Positions 5,116-60,785 of a stretch of 64,000 bases of DNA are shown piece after piece (positions within the stretch are counted from its first letter, which is position 1; every line of letters starts with the position of its first letter). Source of the stretch: Elusimicrobiota bacterium (GTDB lineage Bacteria; Elusimicrobiota; Elusimicrobia; Elusimicrobiales; UBA9959); the NCBI GenBank assembly GCA_016208085.1, contig JACQYT010000056.1, positions 1-64,000 of the forward strand. Reading direction: 5' to 3'. The notes beneath the pieces are model-generated. The model saw only the letters and a list, made by a program, of their open reading frames with translations. It was not told the DNA's origin and ran no database searches. Position numbers and translations under genes: made by a program.

Positions 5116-5971
5116 AGGCGGGGTCACGGCGAAGATTTTGCTGGCCGAGGGCACGGCGCGGCTTCGAGCCGCAGGAATAAGCGAGGCGGGGCTTAATTGC
5201 GCCTGGCTGCTGGCGTACGTGCTTGGAGACGACAGGCTTTCCCTGCTTGCCGACGGCGCGCGGCCGGTGCCGCCCCGGGCGGCCGGAAACTTTAAAAAAC
5301 TTTTGGCGCGCAAAGCCCGGGGCGAGCCGCTGGCTTATATACTCGGCTGGCAGCCTTTCTGCGGCCTGTCCCTGAAAGTGGATCGGCGGGTGCTGGTCCC
5401 TAGGCCGGAGACCGAAGAGCTAGTCGGCCTGGCAGCGGATTTTATACTTAAGAATCACAAGAACGGCGCGCCGGAGATACTTGATTTCGGCGCCGGTTCC
5501 GGCGCCATAGCGCTGGCGCTGGCTTTTCGTTTTCCCAAAGCCTCGGTCACGGCGGCTGAGAAATCAAAGGACGCTTTAGCCTGCGCCAAAGAAAATGCCG
5601 CTGCCCACGGCCTTGAAAGCCGGGTAAGATTTTTACGGGCCGCTTCACTTAAAGGCGCAAAAGGCCTTTTTGACGTGATAGTTTCAAATCCCCCTTATAT
5701 CCCCACTACGGTCATACCAGGGCTGGATAAAGAGGCGCTGTCCGAGCCTTTCCTCGCTTTGGACGGCGGCGCTGACGGGCTTAAAGTGGTCAGGCCCATA
5801 ATACGCCAGGCGCCGGAAGCGCTTAAAAAGGGCGGAGCGCTGTTCCTTGAGCTGGGAGACGCCCAGGCGCCTCAGGCGTTTAAGCTGTTTAACGGCCGGT
5901 TCTGGCGGGAAAAAAAACTTTTCAGTGATTTGAACGGAAAGAAGAGATTTATGCGCGCCGTGAAAAAATAA
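5105..5971 (+). CDS. prmC: release factor glutamine N5-methyltransferase
   Basis: SAM-dependent enzyme that methylates the GGQ glutamine of release factors. The 288-aa protein has the PrmC N-terminal helical domain (1-95), the [14 protein letters not shown] signature (95-107), SAM-binding motif I DFGAGSG at 127-133 and the active-site NPPY at 195-198. The ATG at 5105 follows an AAGGTGAG ribosome-binding site inside the prfA 3' end, so translation is probably coupled to prfA. Downstream lies a repeat that leads into murA. Confidence 0.96.
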
Positions 5972-5984
5972 AAAAATTCTGTTC

Positions 5985-6085
5985 CTGACCAGTGAAGCAA
6001 ATTTGCCGGGCGGTTATTGGAAAAATCTATTGGTAGAGGTTGGTAAACAGGCGAACGGAAATCCGTCCGCCTTAGGCGGACGGAT
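5985..6085 (+). repeat. ~100-bp hairpin-leader repeat, copy 1 (murA)
   Basis: Begins CTGACC, has TTATTGGAAAAATCTATTGG in the middle and GCGAACG at offset 66. It ends in a perfect 11-base-arm palindrome (6061-6085) whose last base touches the murA ATG. The same layout precedes nusB and purH, and occurs inverted after tolB and kbl. The TGGAAAAAT may be a weak extended -10 (inference). Confidence 0.8.
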
Positions 6086-7408
6086 ATGGATAATTTTATA
6101 ATACACGGTTCAAAATCTTTGCGCGGCGAGGTGAAGATAAGCGGATCCAAAAACGCGGCGCTGCCGATACTTGCCGCCACCATGCTTACGCGGGAAAAAT
6201 GCGAGATACGGAACGTCCCCGACCTGATGGACATCAAATCCACTTTTGAACTGCTTAATTATATGGGCAAAAAATGTTTTTTCGGATTCAACGTTTTCAG
6301 CGTGGAGGAAGCTTCGGCCCTGAAACAGCACGCCCCCTACGACATGGTCAGGAAGATGCGCGCGTCGGTGCTGGTGGCGGGGCCGCTGCTGGCGAGATTT
6401 AAAAAAGTCAGGTTCTCGCTGCCCGGCGGCTGTTCAATAGGAGTGCGGCCCATAGACATACATCTTGAGGCTTTCCAGAAACTGGGGGCCCAAGTGTCTT
6501 ATGAACGGGGCGATGTAATAGTGAGCGCCGCGAAACTTAAAAGCGCCCGGCTGAAGTTCCGTTTCCCCAGCGTCGGCGCCACCGAGAACCTGATGATGTG
6601 CGCCGCGCTGATAAAAGGGACCACCGTGCTTGAAAACTGCGCCCGGGAGCCGGAGATCGCCGACCTTGCCGGGGCGCTCCGTTGCATGGGAGCCGTTGTG
6701 GAAGGGGAAGGCGCCGCCACAATAAAAATATGCGGCAGGGACGCTTTGAAAGGGCTTAAATATTCCGTCATGCCGGACAGGATAGAGACAGGCACCTTTA
6801 TGCTGATAGCCGCCGCGGCCGGAGGCAAACTCAAACTTTTAAACACCGATCTCAGGCTGGTGGAAGCTGTCACGCGCGGGCTTAAAAAAGCCGGGGTAAA
6901 GATTTCCACCGCCTGCCCGCCAGAAGCCCAACCAACGCCGGTTCGGGAATTTGGCAGGCGGGCCGCGCCAAAGCTCCGCTGGGGGGGGATAACCGTGGAA
7001 GCCAACGGATGCAGGCCGGCGCCGATCGGCGTGGCGACCAAACCCTATCCCGGATTTCCCACGGACCTGCAGGCACCCTGGATGGCGTTTATGGCGCGCG
7101 CCAGAGGTGAAAGCCTGATACACGAAGCGATCTTTGAGAACAGGTTCATACATGCCGCCGAACTTATGCGCATGGGCGCCGATATTACCGTCACCGACCG
7201 GAAAGCCGTCGTCAGAGGCGTCAAACGGCTTCTGGGCGCCCCGGTAATGGCCTCGGACATCAGGGCAGGAGCCGCGCTTATAGTGGCCGCGGCCGCGGCC
7301 AGGGGGATAACGGTGATCAAAAGGGTCTATCATATAGACCGGGGCTATGAAAAAATAGAGGACAAGCTCCGTTTGGCGGGCATGAGGATAGAAAGGGTAA
7401 AAGCATAG
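6086..7408 (+). CDS. murA: UDP-N-acetylglucosamine 1-carboxyvinyltransferase
   Basis: First committed step of peptidoglycan synthesis: transfers enolpyruvate from PEP to UDP-GlcNAc in the cytosol. The catalytic cysteine is C116 in LPGGCSIGVRPIDIH. Other family landmarks are KISGSKNAALPIL (17-29), PYPGFPTDLQAP (320-331) and YHIDRGYEKIEDKLR near the end. At 440 aa it is about 20 longer than usual. The excess is a proline/arginine-rich segment at about 276-298 that has no counterpart in MurA and is encoded by an imperfect inverted repeat. The hairpin of the leader repeat ends exactly at the ATG, leaving no normal Shine-Dalgarno spacing. Confidence 0.96.
   Translation: MDNFIIHGSKSLRGEVKISGSKNAALPILAATMLTREKCEIRNVPDLMDIKSTFELLNYMGKKCFFGFNVFSVEEASALKQHAPYDMVRKMRASVLVAGPLLARFKKVRFSLPGGCSIGVRPIDIHLEAFQKLGAQVSYERGDVIVSAAKLKSARLKFRFPSVGATENLMMCAALIKGTTVLENCAREPEIADLAGALRCMGAVVEGEGAATIKICGRDALKGLKYSVMPDRIETGTFMLIAAAAGGKLKLLNTDLRLVEAVTRGLKKAGVKISTACPPEAQPTPVREFGRRAAPKLRWGGITVEANGCRPAPIGVATKPYPGFPTDLQAPWMAFMARARGESLIHEAIFENRFIHAAELMRMGADITVTDRKAVVRGVKRLLGAPVMASDIRAGAALIVAAAAARGITVIKRVYHIDRGYEKIEDKLRLAGMRIERVKA
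6911..6979 (+). repeat. in-frame repeat-derived insertion within murA
   Basis: The left end gcctgcccgcc and the right end ggcaggcgggc are largely complementary. The block codes for the ~22 residues by which this MurA exceeds its family, between the VKI strand and the GITVEANG strand. Confidence 0.55.
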
Positions 7409-15512: not shown

Positions 15513-16826
15513 TTAGAACTGCATCCAGAAGCCGAAGCGGTGGACATTGCCCAAATCGCCGAACGGCAGGTAAGCGTAATCCACGCCCAGGCCCGACACT
15601 TTCAGCCCGAATCCGAGGCTTAAGCCCACTTCCAGCCCGAGATTGGCGCTGTCGTAGCCGAATTTATAACCGCCCCGCAGCGCGAAGGAATCCCTGAACC
15701 AGTATTCCGCGCCCGCCGACGGGTAGAATTTTTCGTCCACGAAGTACTGGTTCAGCTCCGCCACGAAGTTAAGGCGGGGCTGCGGCTTGTAAAGCATGCC
15801 GGCCCTTAAGCTGAAAGGCAGCGGGTCGGACTCCGAATCAAATTTCATCTTGCTGCCGAGGTTCGCCAGCGCCATGGAAAAGTTCACGCGCTCGGAAGCG
15901 TGATAGATGACGCCGGCGTCCACGGCCAGCGCGAAGGCGCTATCAGTGTCTATCGCGGACCTTATGAATTTAAGGCCGAAGCCCGCATCCAGCTTATCCA
16001 GGAAGTTGGGGAAGGCGTCCTTTTTGGCGTAAGCCAGCGACACGGCCAGATCATTGGAGCTGAAAGCGCCCAGCTCGGGCACCGTGCCGAGAGCGTCGCT
16101 CGCGCCCCGCCTTTCTATCCCGCCGACATTCATAAAAGTCGCGCCCAGCCCGAAGCGTTTGTCGGCCAGATTGCCGGCATATGAGAGATTCCCCATTTTG
16201 GCGTCCTGGAAATAAGAGGTGAAACCAAGACCCACTTCCTGCTTGTCAAACTGCGCCAGGCCCGCCGGGTTGACGAACACAGCGCCGGAATCGTCGGCCA
16301 GCGCGCTGAAGGCGCCGCCCATGGCTATGGCCCGGGGGCTCATGGCCACTTTAAGAAACGGGGCCGCGGTGGTGCCCGCGCCGGAGGCAAGGCAGGGTAG
16401 AGGGGAGAGGGTAGAGGGTAGAGTTAAAGCCAGAAACAAAAGAACAGCGGCTATTTTAACTTTCCCCGCCTCCTTTTTAAGTGAGTTCATCAATCCGGTA
16501 ATCATTTTAATCACCTCTCCAATATTAGAGTAAACAGACGCGTACACCGCCTCATTTACATAGCCCAAATCTTTCGCAAGCATCCATTGTGTTTCCAATT
16601 CAGCCGCTGAACCCATAGCCATTGACAGAAACTGGAGATATTCCGCCATATGGGTACGGCGGTATCCCTCGGCTATATTACTAGGAATGGAGAGGGAAGC
16701 TCTGCGCATTTGAGAAGTTAACCCGTAGAGTTCCGTTTTGGGAAAGGTATCAGTGGCCTTGTATACTTCAAGAACCAGCCGATACGCTTTTTTCCAGACC
16801 TTAAGTTCCTTGTAATCCCGAAGCAT
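15513..16826 (-). CDS. four-helix-bundle (23S intervening-sequence type) protein fused to a PorV-family outer-membrane barrel
   Basis: Residues 1-117 match the four-helix-bundle family first described from 23S rRNA intervening sequences: LKVWKKAYRLVLEVYK, ELYGLTSQMRRASLSIPSNI, AEGYRRTHMAEYLQFL, ELETQWMLAKDLGY. Without a stop the frame runs into a signal-peptide-like helix (IAAVLLFLALTLPSTLSPL, about 125-143). A PorV/PorQ barrel follows: GAGTTAAPFLKVAMSPRAIAMGGAF, the NPAGLA box, and a C-terminal strand ending in F. PorV proteins in Bacteroidetes shuttle cargo of the type IX secretion system. A signal peptide placed 120 residues in cannot work normally, so internal initiation at M113 (codon 16488-16490) or a non-functional fusion is likely. 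Part of the signal region is written in GGGTAGAGGG repeat. Confidence 0.85.
   Translation of the reverse strand: MLRDYKELKVWKKAYRLVLEVYKATDTFPKTELYGLTSQMRRASLSIPSNIAEGYRRTHMAEYLQFLSMAMGSAAELETQWMLAKDLGYVNEAVYASVYSNIGEVIKMITGLMNSLKKEAGKVKIAAVLLFLALTLPSTLSPLPCLASGAGTTAAPFLKVAMSPRAIAMGGAFSALADDSGAVFVNPAGLAQFDKQEVGLGFTSYFQDAKMGNLSYAGNLADKRFGLGATFMNVGGIERRGASDALGTVPELGAFSSNDLAVSLAYAKKDAFPNFLDKLDAGFGLKFIRSAIDTDSAFALAVDAGVIYHASERVNFSMALANLGSKMKFDSESDPLPFSLRAGMLYKPQPRLNFVAELNQYFVDEKFYPSAGAEYWFRDSFALRGGYKFGYDSANLGLEVGLSLGFGLKVSGLGVDYAYLPFGDLGNVHRFGFWMQF
16395..16423. repeat. GGGTAGAGGG tract inside the PorV signal-peptide region
   Basis: Four tandem units of gggtagag, translated on the minus strand as LPSTLSPLP. 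The same tract occurs at 34016-34044 at the same place in the second PorV gene. Confidence 0.8.
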
Positions 16827-26013: not shown

Positions 26014-26289
26014 TTATCTCCTTAAATACAGCAGGGTAGAGGGTAGAGGGTTTAGGGTATAGGGTAAGAAATTCCTCATTTCGGCGCACTCTACACTGCT
26101 ATACCTCTCCCTTTTCTTCATAGCCGTTGCTTGTGCTTGTGACTTAACATTAACATTCAGACGATTCCCAACAATCTCCTCTTTTTCTTCAAAACCGGCT
26201 TCTTCAAAAACCTGTTTCAGTATGCCCAGCTGCTTTGCGCTTTCCAGATACAGCTCCACGGCTTCAGTCAGGTTTTTTGGATTCTTCAA
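26014..26289 (-). pseudogene. remnant of a HicB-like antitoxin with repeat-coded tail
   Basis: The segment LTEAVELYLESAKQLGILKQ resembles the C-terminal part of HicB-type antitoxins (EAVELYLE.. then an acidic end). The upstream HicB core and its pattern 'CPELPGC' are missing. The frame overlaps the HEPN gene by 26 bases and would need a TTG start. Its last 20 codons (LPYTLNPLPSTLLYL) are pure GGGTAGAGGG repeat on the complementary strand. It looks like debris in the toxin-antitoxin locus rather than a working gene. Confidence 0.4.
26034..26066. repeat. GGGTAGAGGG tract upstream of the giant gene
   Basis: Variants gggtagaggg, gggtttaggg and gggtataggg in tandem, 26 bases upstream (minus strand) of the giant protein's start. 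Confidence 0.7.
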
Positions 26290-33084: not shown

Positions 33085-33157
33085 GATATTTCCCCGTCAG
33101 CGGTTAACCCGAAAGCTTCAGTTTAAATTGCTAACGATTTCAGCTGCAATTTTCGGG

Positions 33158-34186
33158 TTAAAAGTTAAAGCCCAGAGTCATCCTGTGAGTATCGCCAAGG
33201 TCGCCGAACGGTACGTAGGCGTAATCCAGCGCGAACCTGTCGAATTTCAGGCCGACTCCGGCGCCGAGACCCACCAGGCTGCTGCCCAGCTTATCGGCGC
33301 TGCGCCCGAACTGGTAACCAGCCCTGAAGGCGAAGTTCTTGTTCAGAAGGTATTCCGCGCCCAGGGCCAGGTAGATGCGCTCGTCGTTAGCCAGCCAGTC
33401 CAGTTCGGCGCCGGCGGCCAGTTTCCCGTCAAAGAAGCTGGTGGCCGCGCCGCCCTTGACGGCCAGGGGGAGCCTGTCCGGGCCTATGCTGCTGCCGAGG
33501 TTCTGCACCACGAAAGCTGCTGTCCAGGCGTTGTTAAGCTTATAGGAAGACCCGAGGTCCAGCGCCACAGCCTGGTCGGTCGCGGTGTCCAGCTTCTGCG
33601 AGATGTACTTCAGGTTTGCGCCCAGAGCCAGGCCGGGCCTTACTTCAGGCCTGGCGTAGGACAGCGTGAAAGCCATATTATCGTTGCTGAACCTGGAATC
33701 AGGGAGATCGCTGTCCCCGGCGCGCTTTTCTATATCGGAGACGGTCAGGTAGTTAAGGCCGGCGCCCACAACCCCCGAGCTCCCGCTGAGCGGGGCGGCA
33801 TAGACAAGCGCGCCCTGGGACTCGTCTATGAAAAGCATGCTGTAACTCGCGCTCAGGCTTTTCTGTTTTACCTCGGCCAGTTTGCCGGGGTTCCAGTTCG
33901 CGGCATTGGCGCCCTCGGTGATTACGCTGGCGGCGGAGCCGAGGGCTAGTTCCCTGGCCCCCACGCCCACTTTAAGGAAGCTTGCGCCGGTGGTACCCAC
34001 ACCCGCCGAGAACAAGGGTAGAGGGTAGAGGGTAGAGGGTAGAGCAAAACAAAACAACAGCATTAATACTTTAACCATGGGATTGTTGCCGGATTTTAGC
34101 GAAGAGATTAGTCCTGTTAACATACGCGCTACCTCCTGTTCTTTGTCATATATGTCTTTGAATTCGTCCTGGGAAACAAACCCCAT
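33158..34186 (-). CDS. PorV-family outer-membrane barrel protein 2, with four-helix-bundle remnant at the N-terminus
   Basis: The barrel (about residues 58-342) has the PorV marks AGVGTTGASFLKVGVGARELALG, ANAANWNPGKLAEV and SYSMLFIDESQGAL, and ends THRMTLGFNF. Residues 1-32 (FVSQDEFKDIYDKEQEVARM, then LTGLISSLKS) match the last helix of the four-helix-bundle protein fused to the other PorV. They are left over from a deletion, so the real start is probably the Met at residue 37 (NPMVKVLMLLFCFALPSTL). The signal peptide contains GGGTAGAGGG repeat. The product is expected to be a cargo-handling barrel for the adjacent giant protein (inference from T9SS PorV). Confidence 0.82.
   Translation of the reverse strand: MGFVSQDEFKDIYDKEQEVARMLTGLISSLKSGNNPMVKVLMLLFCFALPSTLYPLPLFSAGVGTTGASFLKVGVGARELALGSAASVITEGANAANWNPGKLAEVKQKSLSASYSMLFIDESQGALVYAAPLSGSSGVVGAGLNYLTVSDIEKRAGDSDLPDSRFSNDNMAFTLSYARPEVRPGLALGANLKYISQKLDTATDQAVALDLGSSYKLNNAWTAAFVVQNLGSSIGPDRLPLAVKGGAATSFFDGKLAAGAELDWLANDERIYLALGAEYLLNKNFAFRAGYQFGRSADKLGSSLVGLGAGVGLKFDRFALDYAYVPFGDLGDTHRMTLGFNF
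34016..34044. repeat. GGGTAGAGGG tract in the second PorV signal peptide
   Basis: Four units of gggtagag, read on the minus strand as LPSTLYPLP, at the same place as the tract in the first PorV gene. Confidence 0.8.
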
Positions 34187-39338: not shown

Positions 39339-42300
39339 TCATTTGGTTATATTCTTAAAATATTCCTCTATAAGCTCTTTGCGGGAGGCGGGATAGCGCT
39401 CCCGGAGGGAATCCATGACTTTTTTGCGCAGGTCCCCGGACGGGACATAGTCGCCGGGTTTGGGCAGCCTGACCGGGGAAACGTTCATTCCGTCGGCGGA
39501 GCGCGCAAAAACCCCCGAAGGCCTGCCGCTTCCTGCGCTGCTGCCCTGCGCTTTTTTAAGGCTCTGGAGCATATTGTCCAGATCTTCGCCGCCAAGCTCC
39601 AGCTCTTCAAGGGCTTTCAATTGCGATGACACGGCCGGCCGTATCTCTTTGTCCGTCAGGGCCTGTGAGGCTTTGCGCATGTGGCCCCCGGCTTTTTCAA
39701 GCCTTTCCAGCAGTTTGGCCGCGAGTTCGCCTGAATAGCCCCCGTCTATCTTCGCGTAAAGTCCGCCGCTTTCCGCCTCTATTTCGTCCTGCCTTTTCGC
39801 GGCGGGCTCAAAAAATTCCAGCTCGGCCGGTTCAAGAAAGGCGGCGTCGGAGCCGAGCTTTGAAACCATTAGAAGGGCAAGGCTGAAGGATGAAGGATGA
39901 AGGATGAAGGATGAAGCGGTGGAAACAGAAACCGTTGCGTCATCGCCGTCCCCTCTACCCTCTACCTTCACCCCTCTACCCTGCTGTTGAAGAGCGGAGC
40001 TTTTTTTTAGTTCAAGTCCCGCTTTTTCTATCATGCTGCGCGCGTTTTCTATATTTTTGGCTCTTAAAAAGGACTGCGCCGAAGCGGCGGCGGAATACGC
40101 TTCAGGATTTTCGGCTTTATAAGCGGCAAGGCTGCCGACCAGGCCGTCTTGCAGCGCGGTAAGTTCATTGAACATGACGGCCTTCGCTTTTTCGGTCTTT
40201 AAAAACACGCTTTCTTCGAATTCTCTATTCGCCGACAGTTCCGCGCTTTGCGCCTCATAAAGGGCTTTCCACGCCTCGGCCAGTTCGCCGATTTTTGAAC
40301 TTTCAGCGCCGGCCCGGCTCTGTGCCGCTTCATGGTCAGAATATTCCTCCATGACGCGGCGCATCTGCGAAAGGGCCTCGGCCAGCTTTGCGGCCAGCTT
40401 TGCGGCCTTGCCGGCGTCTCTTTGGGCTATGGCGCGCGCCAGTTCGCCGGCCGTGCCGAGCGCGCTCCCGGCGGGCAGCGCGAAGGTCTTCCCCCCGTCG
40501 GCCGGCGGCGGCCTGTCTTTCAGCATCGCCTGTATGCGGGCCAGCTCCGAGGCGATCTTCGCCAGGGTCCTTTCCAGCTTTTTCCAGTCCGCGTCGCTGT
40601 CCGGCCCGCCGCCGGCCAGGGTCTCCGCCATGGCCTCCGTGTTCTGGGTCATGCTTTCAAACCCGAAAACGGCGGATCTTGCGCCTTCCCAACGAAGCAT
40701 GGCCTCCAATTCCCCGATGCCGGCGCCAAGCGCCCCGGACAGCTCTTTATGGGCTTTCAACGCTTGCGCGTTGCGGCCGGCCAGGGTTTCAGGCACGGCT
40801 TTTTCCAGAGCTGCGCGCGCGCCGTAACTTAACTCCCGTTCCACCAGGCCATAGCGCTCACGCGCGCCTTCGCCGGTGTAAGGGTCGCCGGCCAGGGTTT
40901 TGCCGAGGCGGCCGGCATCCAAAGCCAGGTCTTTCCACGCGGCGGACAGCCTGTCCATTTCCGTAGTGGAAAACGTTCCGGCGGAACTTTTCAACCTTTC
41001 TATTATTTCGTCTTCTTTTCCCTTGAGCGCGGCCGCGGACCTCCTGAGCGCTTCAAACCCGGCGTAGGCTGCCGCGTGGCGGGCGTCAAAATCCGTTACC
41101 TTTATATTTACAGGTTCGCTTTTGGCGCAAAGTCTGCCGGGAGCCCGGTCGCAGGCGCGGAGATAGAACTCCGCCCTGGCCCCGTCCGGCAGGTCGTATA
41201 GCTCCAAAGCCGCCTCGCCGGGAAACCGACGGACGGACGGCTCGGGAAAAGACCTGACGCTCCTTGAAAAAGAAAGTTCCGCGTCGGCCCGGCCGTTCAG
41301 GAACACCTTCCTTTCAAGGCCTAACTCCGCCAGGCCTATATCGTCCTCGGCTTCATAAACGGCTTTGAGCTCTTCCTGGGGCGCGGCCTCAAGAAGCGGG
41401 AACACCGGAGAAAGGAGCGTTATCAGCGGGGGCTCGTCTTCTTTAGCCTTGATGAGATGTATCCGGCCGCCGGAATTTTGCCCGCCTCCGGCGGAAAGGC
41501 CGCCCGCCGTTTTAAGCTCAAGCTGATAGCTGAGATCCTCAAAAACGGCGAACCGGGCGGCCAGCCGGCCGTCCGAAAGAGAGAGCGGTATTTTCAAGCC
41601 CGACCCGGCGAACACAACCCCGGCTGACTCCAGCTTTTGGGCGCAGGTCCCGGAAACGGACGCAAGACTGCCCTTCAGCGCTTCCGTTTCGGCCGGAAGA
41701 TAAGGATAATCCGTCTTCGGGGCGCCGGTATAGGCGGGCGGGAGGACCGAGAAAACCGGGTCTTTTAAAGAGGGGGCGTCCAACGCATTTACGCGGTATG
41801 CCGCGCTCTCCAGGCCCTTATAGCGGAACTTGTAAAAGAGGTCCTCGCTGAGATTTTCCACTTCATACGCGAACCGCCCGGGTCCCGCGGCCTGCATAAA
41901 ACCGCCGGCCCAGCCGCCGCCCGGATTTTTCAGAAAAAGCTCCGCCCCTCCCAAGCTTGCGGCCCCGGGCCGGGCGGACCGGCCGCCGTTTTTGAAAACA
42001 GCCTCTATTTTAAAAGCGCTTCCCCGGAGCAGGCCGGCATTTCCCGGACGTATCTCCATTATGCTTTCAAGCGGCGCCGCGGAAAAGGGGTGCAAAAGCC
42101 CGTAAAAAGCCTCCGGAGCGGTCCATGCAAAAAAACCGGCCGCGCAAAGCCCCGAGGCAAAAACGACCAGGCGTTTTTTGGCCGCCACCGCTCCAAAGGA
42201 CATAAAATCCGGCCGTTTTTCAAGCTTAAGCCGGGCCGCCGTGACCTCAAGGTGACGCTCTATGAAAGCGGAGGAAGCTCCCGGCGGACAGCCGCCGGCG

Positions 42301-42726: not shown

Positions 42727-42991
42727 ACTAAAAATTTTTGCCGCAAAAATTTTTACTATGCCCCGACCTGAAGAAAGGATAAAGGATTAGGGCTAAAGGC
42801 TAAAGGCCGGAATAATTTCTTTGTTTTTCCTTTATCCTTCAGCCTTCATCCTTTAGCCTTTTTTACGGCATAGCCTTGAGGGAGAAAGAAATTTCTCCCT
42901 CATCTCCCTGCCTGCCGGCAGGCAGGCGGCAAGGTGTTGAAGAAAACCCCGTGCCGGGTAGGATAAAATGTTGTCGGACAACATTTTATTG
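42727..42991. repeat. 265-bp hairpin-rich composite repeat, copy 1
   Basis: Contains in order: an aaaaattttt...aaaaattttt hairpin, ggataaagg...cctttatcc arms, a gagggagaaa/tttctccctc hairpin, the tgcctgccggcaggca palindrome, and an aaaatgttgtcggacaacatttt hairpin. The same order occurs at 60477-60785. It fills most of the 366-bp gene-less gap 42675-43040, where nothing else was recognised. Confidence 0.8.
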
Positions 42992-45500: not shown

Positions 45501-46850
45501 ATGCTCATCAGACGGCCTAAAACAAGGATTATTTTTCCATTCCTCCTCCCTCATCCCTCATCCCTCCGGTTAGGCTTCATAACGTTCCTGCTCTCCCTCA
45601 TAGCCGGCGCAGCCCGGGCCCAGGCCGACGTCTATATAGACGTCGCCGCCTCAAAAGAATTTAAGAAGACGGCTGTGGCGCTGGCCGAATTTCTGCCCGC
45701 TAGAGCGGAAAACCCGAAGGACCTGGGACTGGCCGAAGCTTTCCGCGCTATCATCCGCGCCGACCTGCTGTATTGCAGATATTTCGACCTCAAAGAAGAG
45801 CCTTTCAGCCCGGCGAACCTCTCCACGGGGCCGGCCGCCGTAAAATTCTGGAAGACGGCCGGCGCCGCGTATCTGGTAAGCGCCAAAGCCGCTCAAAGCG
45901 AAACCGTCTGGACTTTCAACGCGCGGCTCCACGATCTGGAAACCGGCAGAATAATCATGGAGAAATTTTACCAGGGCGAACCCCGCGCTTTAAGAAGAGC
46001 CGCCCATCTTTTTTCCGACGACGTCATCTTAAGGGTTACCGGCAGAAAGGGGCTGGCGCATTCAAAGCTGGCTTTTTCAAACAACTCCACCGGCTCAAAG
46101 GAGATATATATAGTGGATTATGACGGGGAAAATCTTATTCAGCTCACAAACGACCGTTCCATAGCTCTGCTTCCCCGCTGGTCCCAGGACGCCGCAAAGA
46201 TCTATTACACCACGTACCGCTACGGCAACCCGGACATGTTTGAGATAGACCTCAAAGCCGGCAAAATAAGGCCCTTCACCACTTTCCAGGGCCTCAACAT
46301 TCCGGGCGGTTTTTCCCCCGACGGCATAACCATGGTCATGACGCTGTCGCGCGGGGACGACCCGAATATCTACATGCTCAACGTAGTCACGAAGGGACTT
46401 GAGAAAATGCTGACCGCCTTCGGGGTCAGTTCAAGCCCGACCTACTCGCCTGACGGAAAACAGATAGCTTTCGTCTCAAACCGTTCAGGCGCCCCCCAGG
46501 TTCATGTCCTGGATCTTGAGACAAAAAAAACCAGAAAACTCACCCGCATGAACTGGTGCGACTCGCCGAACTGGTCGCCTTCGGGGGAATGGATAGTGTT
46601 CGCGGGCAGGGAAACCGCCAGAGAGACGCTGAACATTTTCCTGACCGACCTCAGCGGCCGGAGAAGGCGGCTTACCGACAAAGCCGGGAACAACGAGGAC
46701 CCGTCCTGGTCGCCCGACGGGCGGTTCATAGCTTTCACTTCGACGCGCCGGGGCCATAGAGAGCTTTTCGTAATGGACGCAGACGGCTCCGCCCCCCATC
46801 CCGTCACCGGCCTGAAAGGCAAAACCTACACCCCCAACTGGAGCCCGTAA
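45501..46850 (+). CDS. tolB: Tol-Pal translocation protein TolB
   Basis: Periplasmic beta-propeller that links Pal to the Tol motor. 449 aa: signal peptide (to about residue 41, ending AGAARAQ), a TolB N-terminal domain (about 45-190: VYIDVAASKEFKKTAVALAE, FRAIIRADLLYCRYFDL), then six WD40-like TolB repeats such as RWSQDAAKIYYTTYRYGNP, SPDGKQIAFVSNRSGAPQV and SPDGRFIAFTSTRRGHREL. The signal peptide contains a run of CATCCCT repeat units (PHPSSLRLG). The start ATG has no obvious ribosome-binding site. The last base of the stop codon is the first base of a 27-bp palindrome. Confidence 0.94.
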   Translation: MLIRRPKTRIIFPFLLPHPSSLRLGFITFLLSLIAGAARAQADVYIDVAASKEFKKTAVALAEFLPARAENPKDLGLAEAFRAIIRADLLYCRYFDLKEEPFSPANLSTGPAAVKFWKTAGAAYLVSAKAAQSETVWTFNARLHDLETGRIIMEKFYQGEPRALRRAAHLFSDDVILRVTGRKGLAHSKLAFSNNSTGSKEIYIVDYDGENLIQLTNDRSIALLPRWSQDAAKIYYTTYRYGNPDMFEIDLKAGKIRPFTTFQGLNIPGGFSPDGITMVMTLSRGDDPNIYMLNVVTKGLEKMLTAFGVSSSPTYSPDGKQIAFVSNRSGAPQVHVLDLETKKTRKLTRMNWCDSPNWSPSGEWIVFAGRETARETLNIFLTDLSGRRRRLTDKAGNNEDPSWSPDGRFIAFTSTRRGHRELFVMDADGSAPHPVTGLKGKTYTPNWSP

Positions 46851-46935
46851 CCCGAAAATCGCGGCGATTTTCGGGTCTTCGTTCGCCTCTCAAACAACTG
46901 GCATATTATGCAGCTGTTTCACATTATACCAGTGA
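46850..46935 (-). repeat. ~100-bp hairpin-leader repeat, inverted copy 4 (after tolB)
   Basis: Read on the minus strand: TTTCACTGGTATAATGTG, then GCGAACG, then a 27-bp palindrome (46850-46876) identical to the one before purH. It abuts the tolB stop. The TGGTATAAT matches an extended -10 box exactly, pointing antisense into tolB. Confidence 0.75.
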
Positions 46936-46942
46936 AATAAAA

Positions 46943-46976
46943 GGCCCCGGCATAATTGCCGGGGCCGTTCTTTTTT
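46943..46976 (+). terminator. Rho-independent terminator after tolB
   Basis: Perfect 10-base arms (ggccccggca / tgccggggcc), loop taat, followed by gttctttttt. Confidence 0.88.
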
Positions 46977-53210: not shown

Positions 53211-54458
53211 ATGGCTTTCGCCGACACTGTCCGAGAGGAGTATCAGAAAGAGCTTGAGAGCTTGAGGAGCGCCGGCATGTTCAAGGTCGAGCGCTTCATC
53301 CATTCCGCGCAGGCCGCCGACATCGAAGTGGAATTCCCGGCGGGTTCGGCGCCCAAAAAAGTCATCAATATGTGCGCCAATAATTACCTTGGGCTCTCCA
53401 GCCATCCCGAGGTCGTCAAGGCCGCGCACGACGGCATGGACAGGCGCGGCTACGGGATGTCCTCGGTGCGCTTCATCTGCGGCACACAGGACATACATAA
53501 GGAGCTGGAAAAGCGCATGACGGAGTTCCTCGGTACCGAGGACACCATCCTGTTTGCGTCCTGCATGGACGCCAACGCCGGGGTCTTCGAGGCTATTCTC
53601 GGCGAAGCCGACGCGATCATCTCCGACCGCCTGGTCCACGCTTCCATCATAGACGGCATCAGGCTGTGCAAGGCGCAGCGCGACATCTTCAACCATACCG
53701 ACATGAAAGACCTGGAGGCCAAGCTCCGCCTTCATTGCGGCAGACGTCGTAAGATCGTAGTCACGGACGGCGTTTTCTCTATGGACGGCGACACGCCCCC
53801 GCTGGACGAGATGGTTGTCCTGTGCGAAAAGTACGGCGCGCTGCTCTTCGTTGACGATTCCCATTCCACCGGCTTTATCGGCAAGACGGGCCGTGGCACG
53901 CACGAAAAATACGGCGTCGTAGGCAAAATAGATGTCATAACCACCACTTTCGGCAAGGCCCTCGGCGGCGCCTCGGGCGGCTGCGTCTCGGGCCGCAGGG
54001 AACTTGTGGAGATGTGCCGGCAGAAGGCCCGCCCGTACCTGTTCTCCAATACGATTGCGCCTGTGGTGGTGGCGGGAGCGCTGCGGGTGTTGGACATTCT
54101 TTCCCGGAGCACGGAGCGCCGCGACAAGCTGGAGAGCAATTCCGCCTATTGGCGCAAGGGCCTGACCGAAGCCGGCTTTGTGCTCAAAGAGGGCGACACC
54201 CCGATCGTTCCGGTCATGCTGTTCAACGCGAAGCTCGCCCAGGATTTCTCCCGCGACCTCTTTGACGAGGGGATATACGCGATAGGCTTCTTCTTCCCGG
54301 TGGTTCCCAATGGCCAGGCCCGCATCCGCACGCAGCTTTCGGCCGCGCACGAGACGCACCATCTGGATAAGGCCCTTACCGCCTTTATCAAGGTAGGTAA
54401 AAAATACGGGATACCGGGCAAGACCAGGGAAGAGATCATCGCCAGGTACGGCGCTTAA
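53211..54458 (+). CDS. kbl: glycine C-acetyltransferase (2-amino-3-ketobutyrate CoA ligase)
   Basis: PLP enzyme of threonine breakdown: 2-amino-3-oxobutyrate + CoA to glycine + acetyl-CoA. From the Met at 53211 it is 415 aa and collinear with E. coli Kbl. VINMCANNYLGLSSHPEV, MSSVRFICGTQDIHKELE, TDGVFSMDGDTPPLDE and FVDDSHSTGFIGKTGRGTHE are present, the PLP lysine is in TTTFGKALGGASGG, and the close is FFFPVVPNGQARIRTQLSAA. These favour KBL over biotin-pathway AONS, though no threonine dehydrogenase is next to it. Translation may begin at 53145, giving a 22-residue acpS-derived extension. Confidence 0.9.
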   Translation: MAFADTVREEYQKELESLRSAGMFKVERFIHSAQAADIEVEFPAGSAPKKVINMCANNYLGLSSHPEVVKAAHDGMDRRGYGMSSVRFICGTQDIHKELEKRMTEFLGTEDTILFASCMDANAGVFEAILGEADAIISDRLVHASIIDGIRLCKAQRDIFNHTDMKDLEAKLRLHCGRRRKIVVTDGVFSMDGDTPPLDEMVVLCEKYGALLFVDDSHSTGFIGKTGRGTHEKYGVVGKIDVITTTFGKALGGASGGCVSGRRELVEMCRQKARPYLFSNTIAPVVVAGALRVLDILSRSTERRDKLESNSAYWRKGLTEAGFVLKEGDTPIVPVMLFNAKLAQDFSRDLFDEGIYAIGFFFPVVPNGQARIRTQLSAAHETHHLDKALTAFIKVGKKYGIPGKTREEIIARYGA

Positions 54459-54488
54459 AAAAATGTCCGCCTCAGGCAGACATTTTTT
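54459..54488 (+). terminator. Rho-independent terminator after kbl
   Basis: aaatgtccgcct / aggcagacattt arms (one mismatch) flanked by an A run and a T run, starting directly after the kbl stop. It doubles as the hairpin end of the inverted leader repeat. Confidence 0.8.
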
Positions 54489-54569
54489 TAATATTCGTTC
54501 GCCTGCTTGCCGGCTTCGGCCGATAGATTTTACCAGTGAACGCCTGTTAATTTTAGTATTGCCGATCAG
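54463..54569 (-). repeat. ~100-bp hairpin-leader repeat, inverted copy 5 (after kbl)
   Basis: Read on the minus strand: CTGATC, then AGGCGTTCACTGGTAAAATC, then GCGAACG at offset 67, then an ATGTCTGCC hairpin touching the kbl terminator. The body aligns closely with the murA copy (AAAATCTAT..GG). Confidence 0.75.
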
Positions 54570-54625
54570 GAAAGAAACTAAAAAACCCTCCTTTTAGCAA
54601 AGGGGGAAGAAGGGGAATTTGAATA

Positions 54626-56162: not shown

Positions 56163-56274
56163 AGGGGAAGATTTTTGCAAAGAAAATTAACGACGAGGCG
56201 GGGACCGGATAATAGTTTAAATTTTGTATTATATAAGTGGTTTCAAGGCCGGTTCTCTAAATGAAGTTTTCGCT

Positions 56275-56377
56275 CTGACCGGCGTGACGGAATTCACCGG
56301 CGTGTGCCGGTGAAATACAAAGCTGAAGTCGTCTGACAGGCGAACGGACACCCGTCCGCCTCAAGGCGCGGACGGGT
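56275..56377 (+). repeat. ~100-bp hairpin-leader repeat, copy 2 (nusB)
   Basis: CTGACCGGCG start, GCGAACG at offset 65, ending in an acccgtccgc/gcggacgggt hairpin (56350-56377) one base before the nusB ATG. Confidence 0.8.
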
Positions 56378-56378
56378 T

Positions 56379-58927
<2,549 letters not shown>

Positions 58928-58930
58928 ATT

Positions 58931-60430
58931 ATGGATAAAACCGCGTATCTCAGCGTTTACGACAAGACCGGCATCGTGGATTTTGCCCGCGGGCTGGAAA
59001 GCCTCGGTTTTGAGATCTACGCCTCCGGCTCCACTTTCAAGCTCCTCCGGGAATCGGAAATAGAGGCGGAAGATATACGCTACTCGCCGCCGGTCCCGGT
59101 TTCTATCCTCAAAGCCTTGTCCGGCCGCTCCGGCGTCCTTTCGGAAAACGGGGTGGAAGTGCCCGGGCCTTATATCGTGGCCGCCAACCTCTACCCGATA
59201 GCCAATATCGTGGGGCAGGAAGAATTCGCCATAGAGGAACTGTCCAATTACCTGGATCAGGCCAACGCCGCAGTCCTGCGCGCGGCCGCCAAAGATTTTG
59301 AAAATGTGATAACGCTCTGCCGGCCCCAGGATTACGGGCCGGTCCTTGAGGCGCTTAGAACGGCGGGGGGGCTTGAGCCCGCCAACAAGCGGCAGCTCGC
59401 CGCCCAGGCCTGGCAGTACCTGGCGGCCTACGACGCCACCGTCGCGCAGTATCTTTCCGAGACGCGGGACCTGCTGGGCGAAGAAGTGGTGATGAGCCTT
59501 AAGAAAGTCATGGAGCTCGCTTACGGCGAAAACCGCCATCAGAAAGCGGCTTTTTATGCCCTGAGCGGCGCCAGGCCGCGCGGCCTTAACGCGGCCCGGA
59601 TACTTTCCGGCGGGCAATTCAACCTGAACCATTATCTGGACCTGAACATGGCCTTTGAACTGGCCGCTGAATTCGAGGAGCCGGTTTGCGTCATTTCAAA
59701 ACATGCCAGGCCGGCCGGCGTCTGCGCGGCCGTAAAGCCGGTAGATTGCTTCAGGGGCGCTTTCAAAGCCGATCCCGCCGGGGCGGCGGGCGGCACGGCC
59801 GCCTTCAACCGCCAGGTGGACGAAGAAACGGCCCGGGCGCTGAAAGAGGTTTTTATTGAAACCGTAATGGCACCGGATTACGGCAAGGAAGCCCTGGCGC
59901 TGCTGCGCGCCAAGGAAGGCCTGAAGGTCATCGCCCTGCCGGCCCCGGTCCTTTCCCCCAGAGAGGTGGAGCTTTATTCCGTGGCCGGCGGGCTGCTGAT
60001 AGAGTCCAAGGACCAGGAAGTGCTGGGCGCGGAGCTGCAATGCGTTACCAGGCGCAAGCCGTCCGATGAGGAATTGCGTTCCCTCAAGCTGGCCTGGAAG
60101 ATTTCAAAATACGCCAAAACCTACGCCGTGGCGCTGGCATCCGGCGGGACTTCGGTTGCCCTGGGCGCGGCGGAAAGCTCCACCTATGACGCGGTCCGGA
60201 GCGCGGTTTTAAAGCTTAAGGATAAGCATCCGATCCTGGAAGGCAAGGCGCCGCTGGTGATGGCCTGCGACGCGGCGCTGCCGCTGAAGACACTGGAGGC
60301 GGCGCTGGCGGCGGGGATAAGCGCGGTGATACAGCCGGGGGGCTGGCGGGAAGACCTGGTCTGCGCCCAGTTCTGCGACTTAAAAAACATCGCGATGGTC
60401 CTGACCGGCGTAAGGCACTTCAAACACTGA
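58931..60430 (+). CDS. purH: PurH-like AICAR transformylase with divergent IMP cyclohydrolase domain
   Basis: Last two steps of purine synthesis. 499 aa from the ATG at 58931 (family about 520). The transformylase half keeps the KH pair (ISKHARPAGV; usually KHANPCG), AFNRQVDEETA and the IIQPGG/TGxRHFxH ending (VIQPGGWRED, TGVRHFKH). The cyclohydrolase half has YDKTGIVDFA, ASGSTFKLL, NLYPI and LRAAAKDF, but lacks the catalytic stretch 'GRVKTLHPKVHGG'. At residues 57-75 it reads SILKALSGRSGVLSENGVE instead. IMP cyclohydrolase activity is therefore doubtful; a second enzyme such as PurO, or changed function, is possible. Confidence 0.88.
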   Translation: MDKTAYLSVYDKTGIVDFARGLESLGFEIYASGSTFKLLRESEIEAEDIRYSPPVPVSILKALSGRSGVLSENGVEVPGPYIVAANLYPIANIVGQEEFAIEELSNYLDQANAAVLRAAAKDFENVITLCRPQDYGPVLEALRTAGGLEPANKRQLAAQAWQYLAAYDATVAQYLSETRDLLGEEVVMSLKKVMELAYGENRHQKAAFYALSGARPRGLNAARILSGGQFNLNHYLDLNMAFELAAEFEEPVCVISKHARPAGVCAAVKPVDCFRGAFKADPAGAAGGTAAFNRQVDEETARALKEVFIETVMAPDYGKEALALLRAKEGLKVIALPAPVLSPREVELYSVAGGLLIESKDQEVLGAELQCVTRRKPSDEELRSLKLAWKISKYAKTYAVALASGGTSVALGAAESSTYDAVRSAVLKLKDKHPILEGKAPLVMACDAALPLKTLEAALAAGISAVIQPGGWREDLVCAQFCDLKNIAMVLTGVRHFKH

Positions 60431-60476: not shown

Positions 60477-60785
60477 ACTAAAAATTTTTGCAGCAAAAAT
60501 TTTTATCATGCCCCGCCCTAAAGAAAGGATAAAGGATCAGGGATCAGGGATAAAGGATAAAGGCCGGAATAATCTCTTTGTTTTTCCTTCATCCTTCAGC
60601 CTTTATCCTTTAGCCTTTCTTCGGGCGGGGTAACCTTGGGGCAAGAGGGAGTTTGAGGGAGAAATAAATTTCTCCCTCCTCCTGTTGGATACAGTTGAAT
60701 TGTGTCGCTTCGCTCCACCCCGGCAAGGTGTTGAAGAAAACCCCGCGCCGGGTAGGATAAAATGTTGTCGGACAACATTTTATTG
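60477..60785. repeat. 309-bp hairpin-rich composite repeat, copy 2
   Basis: Same order of hairpins as 42727-42991 and the same orientation, with a ~45-bp different insert before the ggcaaggtgttgaagaaaac segment. It overlaps the 3' end of the minus-strand gene at 60596. Confidence 0.8.

Follow-up and report, generated by a model that had tools for sequence, protein, structure and literature searches.

In the window analysed here, a stretch of 64,000 nucleotides from an Elusimicrobiota bacterium, the coding sequences of tolB and kbl are each met at the stop codon by a hairpin, raising the question of whether these hairpins mark a conserved promoter firing antisense into the gene ends, as originally predicted from putative -10 boxes, or belong to an element of another kind. 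The gene names themselves follow from Pfam matches to TolB-like PD40 repeats, LigA and PurH; for kbl, a class I/II aminotransferase match is consistent with the putative name.

At tolB, the final A of the TAA stop codon (46848-46850, plus strand) doubles as the first base of a perfect 27-bp palindrome, ACCCGAAAATCGCGGCGATTTTCGGGT (46850-46876, minus strand; 12-bp stem predicted at -16.4 kcal/mol), which is identical to the palindrome at 58901-58927 upstream of purH. At kbl, the stop codon (TAA, 54456-54458) is overlapped by a hairpin at 54455-54491 (minus strand), TTAAAAAAATGTCCGCCTCAGGCAGACATTTTTTTAA, whose sequence is unlike that at tolB. On the minus strand the hairpins are followed by GCGAACG and then by TGGTATAAT in the tolB copy and TGGTAAAAT in the kbl copy, with TGGTAWAAT as the shared motif; the combination GCGAACG...ACCCG occurs three times in the window against an expectation of 0.13, which is above chance. 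The sequence details of the original prediction, namely the shared base and the identical palindrome, the closeness of the kbl hairpin to its stop and the two minus-strand continuations, were thus reproduced. The tolB hairpin does not have the form of an intrinsic terminator: the stem is followed by CTTCGTTCGCC with no T-run, and the terminator scan did not report it. The same scan placed a GC-rich terminator-like hairpin with a T-rich tail on the far side of the repeat (46943-46966, plus strand), a candidate tolB terminator; a T-run is also present in the left-end consensus of the repeat.

The source genome is an Elusimicrobia metagenome-assembled genome of 3.14 Mb in 136 contigs, 90% complete, and its nearest relatives by tolB are likewise Elusimicrobia; all data in this study are from metagenome-assembled genomes. 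With the tolB copy as the query, dozens of dispersed matches were found in the source genome. A covariance model trained on 20 copies recognised about 80, spread over dozens of contigs, and each locus was analysed together with some 1.5 kb of flanking sequence. The hairpins at tolB and kbl belong to one interspersed repeat family, of which they form the right-hand ends. The proposal of a single element repeated in both orientations holds, and its body is conserved outside these loci as a core common to the genomic copies. Outside the source genome, the right end, searched as an exact pattern, had no match in viral contigs or in 84,980 species genomes, a set from which the genome itself and near-identical records may have been left out, and only four of 60 relatives gave matches. 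A genome of another genus (G025) has many hairpin copies, some with a diverged core whose homology was judged by eye, and a genome of the same genus (G001) has one truncated core in 945 kb.

Five copies recognised by the covariance model, and one short relative, lie in the window. The tolB copy (46850-46947, minus strand, 55.6 bits) has a partly decayed core and an unrecognisable left end, and the kbl copy (54454-54580, minus strand) scores 82.4 bits. Two further plus-strand matches have exchanged the hairpin: one (5974-6085) spans the gap from a gene end at 5971 to an ATG at 6086 and carries ATCCGTCCGCCTTAGGCGGACGGAT, and the other (56264-56377), one base short of an ATG at 56379, carries a CCGTCCGC...GCGGACGG stem. 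The short hairpin-type relative (33105-33160) has the same ends, TA-ACCCGAAAG...TTTTCGGGT-TA, and ends exactly on the TAA (33158-33160, minus strand) of an ORF at 33158-34186. In the purH copy, the core and right hairpin (58814-58927, plus strand, 119 bits) end 4 bases upstream of the purH ATG at 58932, and the left hairpin (58797-58825, plus strand) is the translated end of ligA. The last nine or so ligA codons and the TGA (58797-58828) are supplied by this left hairpin, the TGA itself (58826-58828) falling within the CCTGACC of the repeat, and the last residues of LigA in relatives are different (the G001 protein ends in EEFIKLIGKYQ*, the source-genome protein in repeat-encoded residues). 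Not every copy brings the stop codon with it: ligA takes its stop from the element, but the tolB stop is ancestral.

Other repeats occupy the same neighborhood. Among the relatives examined, the ligA-purH gap (L384, L385, L390) holds differing hairpin-rich fillers, as if it were a repeated landing site, and in G025 (L390) a palindrome of the AAAAATTTTTGCnGCAAAAATTTTT type lies directly upstream of the purH ATG. A second interspersed composite repeat occurs in the window at 42727-42991 and 60477-60785, in which the palindrome AAAAATTTTTGCnGCAAAAATTTTT leads into runs of AAGGATAAAGG/AAGGCTAAAGG and the inverse of these, with a GGATAAAATGTTG...CAACATTTTAT segment after them. Additionally, intergenic arrays of a AGGGTAGAGGGTAGAGGG heptamer-like unit in direct and inverted order, able to form long hairpins, were observed at 16304-16428, 26033-26071, 34015-34053 and 39951-39987.

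The full unit measures about 146 bp, with a left-to-right length of mostly 141-149 bp, and on the purH strand consists of a left hairpin (ACCTGAAAGTTTCAGTTG-RAACTGATTTTTTTCGGG), a conserved core (CCTGACCGGCGA..AAATTTtAcaGGCGTTCATTGGTAAAA.......GTTG...ACAGGCGAACGA) in which conserved blocks alternate with variable spacers, and a right hairpin (ACCCGAAAATTGCnGCAATTTTCGGGT). Copies with a recognisable left end, which is kept in about 14-17 of them, have the terminal inverted repeats ACCYGAAA and TTTCGGGT and the boundaries TA-ACCYGAAA ... TTTCGGGT-TA; overall, the right boundary is strict and the left boundary variable. Shorter, hairpin-only units with the same ends are also present, that at 33105-33160 among them. 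The right hairpin folds at -10 kcal/mol or below in 72 of 81 copies, as scored in a 35-nt window that cuts off the long-loop forms, and it varies both through matching changes in the two arms and through wholesale swaps, the variants including changed loops, a roughly 50-bp loop (ATGGATATTTTTATTCGTCAAGTT...), nested palindromes and CCGTCCGCC..GGCGGACGG stem swaps. Some of the long-loop variants (L239, L247, L112, L113) contain nested palindromes of the GCCTGCCGGCAGGC type, that is, repeats inside repeats. Beyond the hairpin, RNAalifold found no conserved RNA structure in the core on either strand, a null result that is weak because the 82-copy alignment is gappy, and a search of five loci against Rfam returned tRNAs and one chance match and no described RNA family.

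The position of the right ends relative to genes was scored for the 80 copies in which it is definable, with ORFs of at least 70 codons for stops and at least 90 codons for starts; the ORF calls are mechanical, and the counts are therefore approximate. Exactly at a stop codon lie 33 right ends (28 TAA, 3 TAG and 2 TGA), another 21 are no more than 19 nt away from a start codon, and 26 are at neither. The distances between hairpins and gene ends are therefore not random, but the claim that a gene is faced by the palindrome end in every case is too strong. TAA makes up 28/33 of the repeat-bearing stops compared to 17/37 of the window genes (P = 0.001). With 371 intergenic TA sites in the window, and 31 of its 43 chosen ORFs ending in TAA or TAG, uniform insertion into TA sites would place 7.7% of right ends at stops, whereas 41% were observed there (P ~1e-16). 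TA is enriched in the flanks: it accounts for 6.7% of dinucleotides in the intergenic DNA of the window, yet among the 14 copies with a left end within two mismatches of the consensus, it flanks the left side in 12 and both sides in 10. The consensus for this flank test excluded the flank, and a separate left-end search used a TA-containing pattern. TA is also found at 20 of the 49 right ends away from verified stops, and a strict stop-codon target was dropped because TA is enriched at non-stop ends too.

Junctions in relatives lacking the element, a comparison suggested along with the original prediction, were examined at tolB. Twenty-nine other genomes of the family lack the element after tolB, yet the gene terminates at the same residue in them, and the three closest have TAA there; the tolB stop is therefore ancestral. 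A dozen loci were aligned with G001, whose available stretches total about 0.95 Mb. The element is absent from G001 at loci with alignable flanks, most of the gaps being filled by unrelated repeat sequence, while a truncated copy is present at C1:1404. Two sites are nearly clean, with gaps of 2 and 9 bp, and neither has a TA duplication: one has TA on the left only, and the other has lost 9 bp or diverged. The case for TA duplication therefore rests on flank composition. At C134:10536, the junction reads TAG in G001 and TAA in the source genome, which fits a TAG rebuilt as TAA; however, the change at C23:1209 runs in the opposite direction, so the former is no proof of rebuilding. At another copy (L054, C135:6826-6941), the right-hairpin arms ATCTGA/TCAGAT match the ATC TGA end of the gene itself, and G001 has the same gene end with no element there. 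Both arms thus track the coding sequence, which suggests arm correction by template switching.

Combined, these results make it probable that the repeats are small, non-autonomous, MITE-like mobile elements that insert at TA and were amplified in this lineage, and not a conserved antisense promoter. The dispersal of about 80 copies with a common core, the hairpin-forming end arms and the enrichment of right ends at stops and before starts all support this reading, and the units show the features of MITEs in being short, non-coding, multi-copy and dispersed, with terminal inverted repeats. A transposase acting in trans would recognise the ends of the unit and insert it at TA. With A as the first base of the unit, a copy landing in the TA of either stop codon, TAA or TAG, would rebuild TAA, and such an insertion would be harmless and survive because the protein is unchanged. 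In a transcript, the hairpin would open the 3' UTR immediately after the stop codon and may have a modest effect on termination or on how fast the mRNA decays; for copies facing the other way, the hairpin would become 5' UTR. Counting against the TA-insertion model are the two copies on TGA, the excess at stops above the TA prediction and the two nearly clean empty sites without a TA duplication. MITEs usually, though not obligatorily, have an autonomous partner with the same ends, and here too the result counts against the model: no mobilising transposase was found among the IS630-type (DDE_3) and Y1 loci of the 90%-complete assembly, the three IS630-type loci having no ends matching the repeat. 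An integron attC identity was also considered, as attC sites likewise follow stops, and was dropped because the copies are dispersed beside housekeeping genes.

The excess at stops bears on some of the other readings. A first guess at its cause is that insertions at other positions in short intergenic regions are removed by purifying selection, and a second is a useful 3' hairpin. The latter would make the repeat a domesticated host element whose stop-proximal hairpin is selected as an mRNA stabiliser, decay signal or termination modulator, and besides the number of right ends at stops, the persistence of the hairpin despite sequence swaps and the location of 10 of 17 hairpins sampled in another genus within 2 nt of a stop speak for it. 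On the other hand, the tolB hairpin lacks a T-run and a separate terminator-like hairpin stands beyond the element, the element is missing at tolB in 29 other genomes, most of the compared copies are not shared with G001, and 26 of 80 copies are at neither stop nor start; selection for host use is considered unlikely. That the repeat is actively directed to stops over and above a TA preference and selection, for example by insertion coupled to translation termination or to gene 3' ends, is considered very doubtful. Transposition by a Y1 (HUH) enzyme, as for REP/RAYT or IS200/IS605-type repeats with a terminal hairpin, insertion next to a short target such as TAA and no duplication, would explain the hairpins at both ends, the strict right and variable left boundaries and the one clean empty site without duplication, and Y1 transposase genes are present in the source genome and its relatives. 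Such a mechanism would not, however, be expected to leave TA at both flanks, as seen in 10 of 14 copies, and none of the Y1 loci examined in the source genome or its relatives has a core copy beside it, the closest being one bare hairpin about 1.2 kb away in G001; this origin is therefore rated as quite improbable.

The reading that started this work, a mobile promoter whose -10 box drives antisense RNA into the tolB and kbl 3' ends, has in its favor that the tolB copy reads TGGTATAAT, which contains TATAAT, and that the Correia elements of Neisseria carry promoters (PMC10969869). Among the 72 copies readable with a simple pattern, however, none has TATAAT at the -10 position and 14 have T1, A2 and T6, the usual hexamers being TAAAAC, TAAAAT and CAAAAC; the tolB TATAAT was missed by this pattern because the core of that copy is decayed. 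A sigma-70-type scan, whose consensus may not be that of Elusimicrobia, likewise found no -35/-10 pair at tolB or kbl. The predicted antisense -10 boxes were thus not borne out apart from the hexamer in the tolB copy: from the sequence, an antisense promoter at these ends appears unlikely, the hexamer variation and absent promoter pairs led to its rejection as a general property of the repeat, and a mobile promoter as the explanation of the family is hardly credible.

The TA-inserting mobile repeat, as the preferred reading, offers a neat example from a little-studied phylum of an element whose end renders insertion into a stop codon harmless. The many natural cases of a hairpin at an identical position behind stops would be useful for testing effects on mRNA, and the ligA example serves as a warning for annotation that a repeat can supply gene ends.

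The literature searched contained no description of repeats like these from Elusimicrobia, and as far as these searches go the family is undescribed and apparently of the RUP/ERIC-like kind. REP/BIME and RAYT systems are similar in being short extragenic hairpins at high copy number, and a REP unit is a simple hairpin of 20-40 bp with a short tag, alone or in pairs. Hairpin-only relatives occur in the Elusimicrobia family as well, but in most copies the hairpins enclose about 80 bp of conserved core, and TA flanks are present; a RAYT link is not supported. The overlap with stop codons has a precedent, since in Streptococcus pneumoniae 36 annotated genes take their stop codon and 3' end from a BOX copy, with no evident truncation (PMC3049150), but BOX is longer and modular (A-B-C), whereas the present repeat uses the same terminal base in each exact case. 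The 107-bp RUP of pneumococcus is a short, non-autonomous element with terminal inverted repeats and a TA target that is nested with other repeats (PMC2229807; PMC3049150), and the Elusimicrobia repeat is alike by description on each of these points; unlike RUP, whose ends match the resident IS630-Spn1, it has no matching transposase among the IS630-type loci examined. The 127-bp ERIC of enterobacteria is intergenic and palindromic with TA at its ends, and its insertion at a 3' end can change the transcript level (PMC10969869; PMC2229807). The Elusimicrobia repeat shares the palindromic form, the intergenic position and the terminal TA, but differs in its host phylum and in ending exactly on a stop in 41% of copies. 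Among known repeats, the family stands closest in kind to RUP, ERIC and Correia (PMC2229807; PMC10969869).
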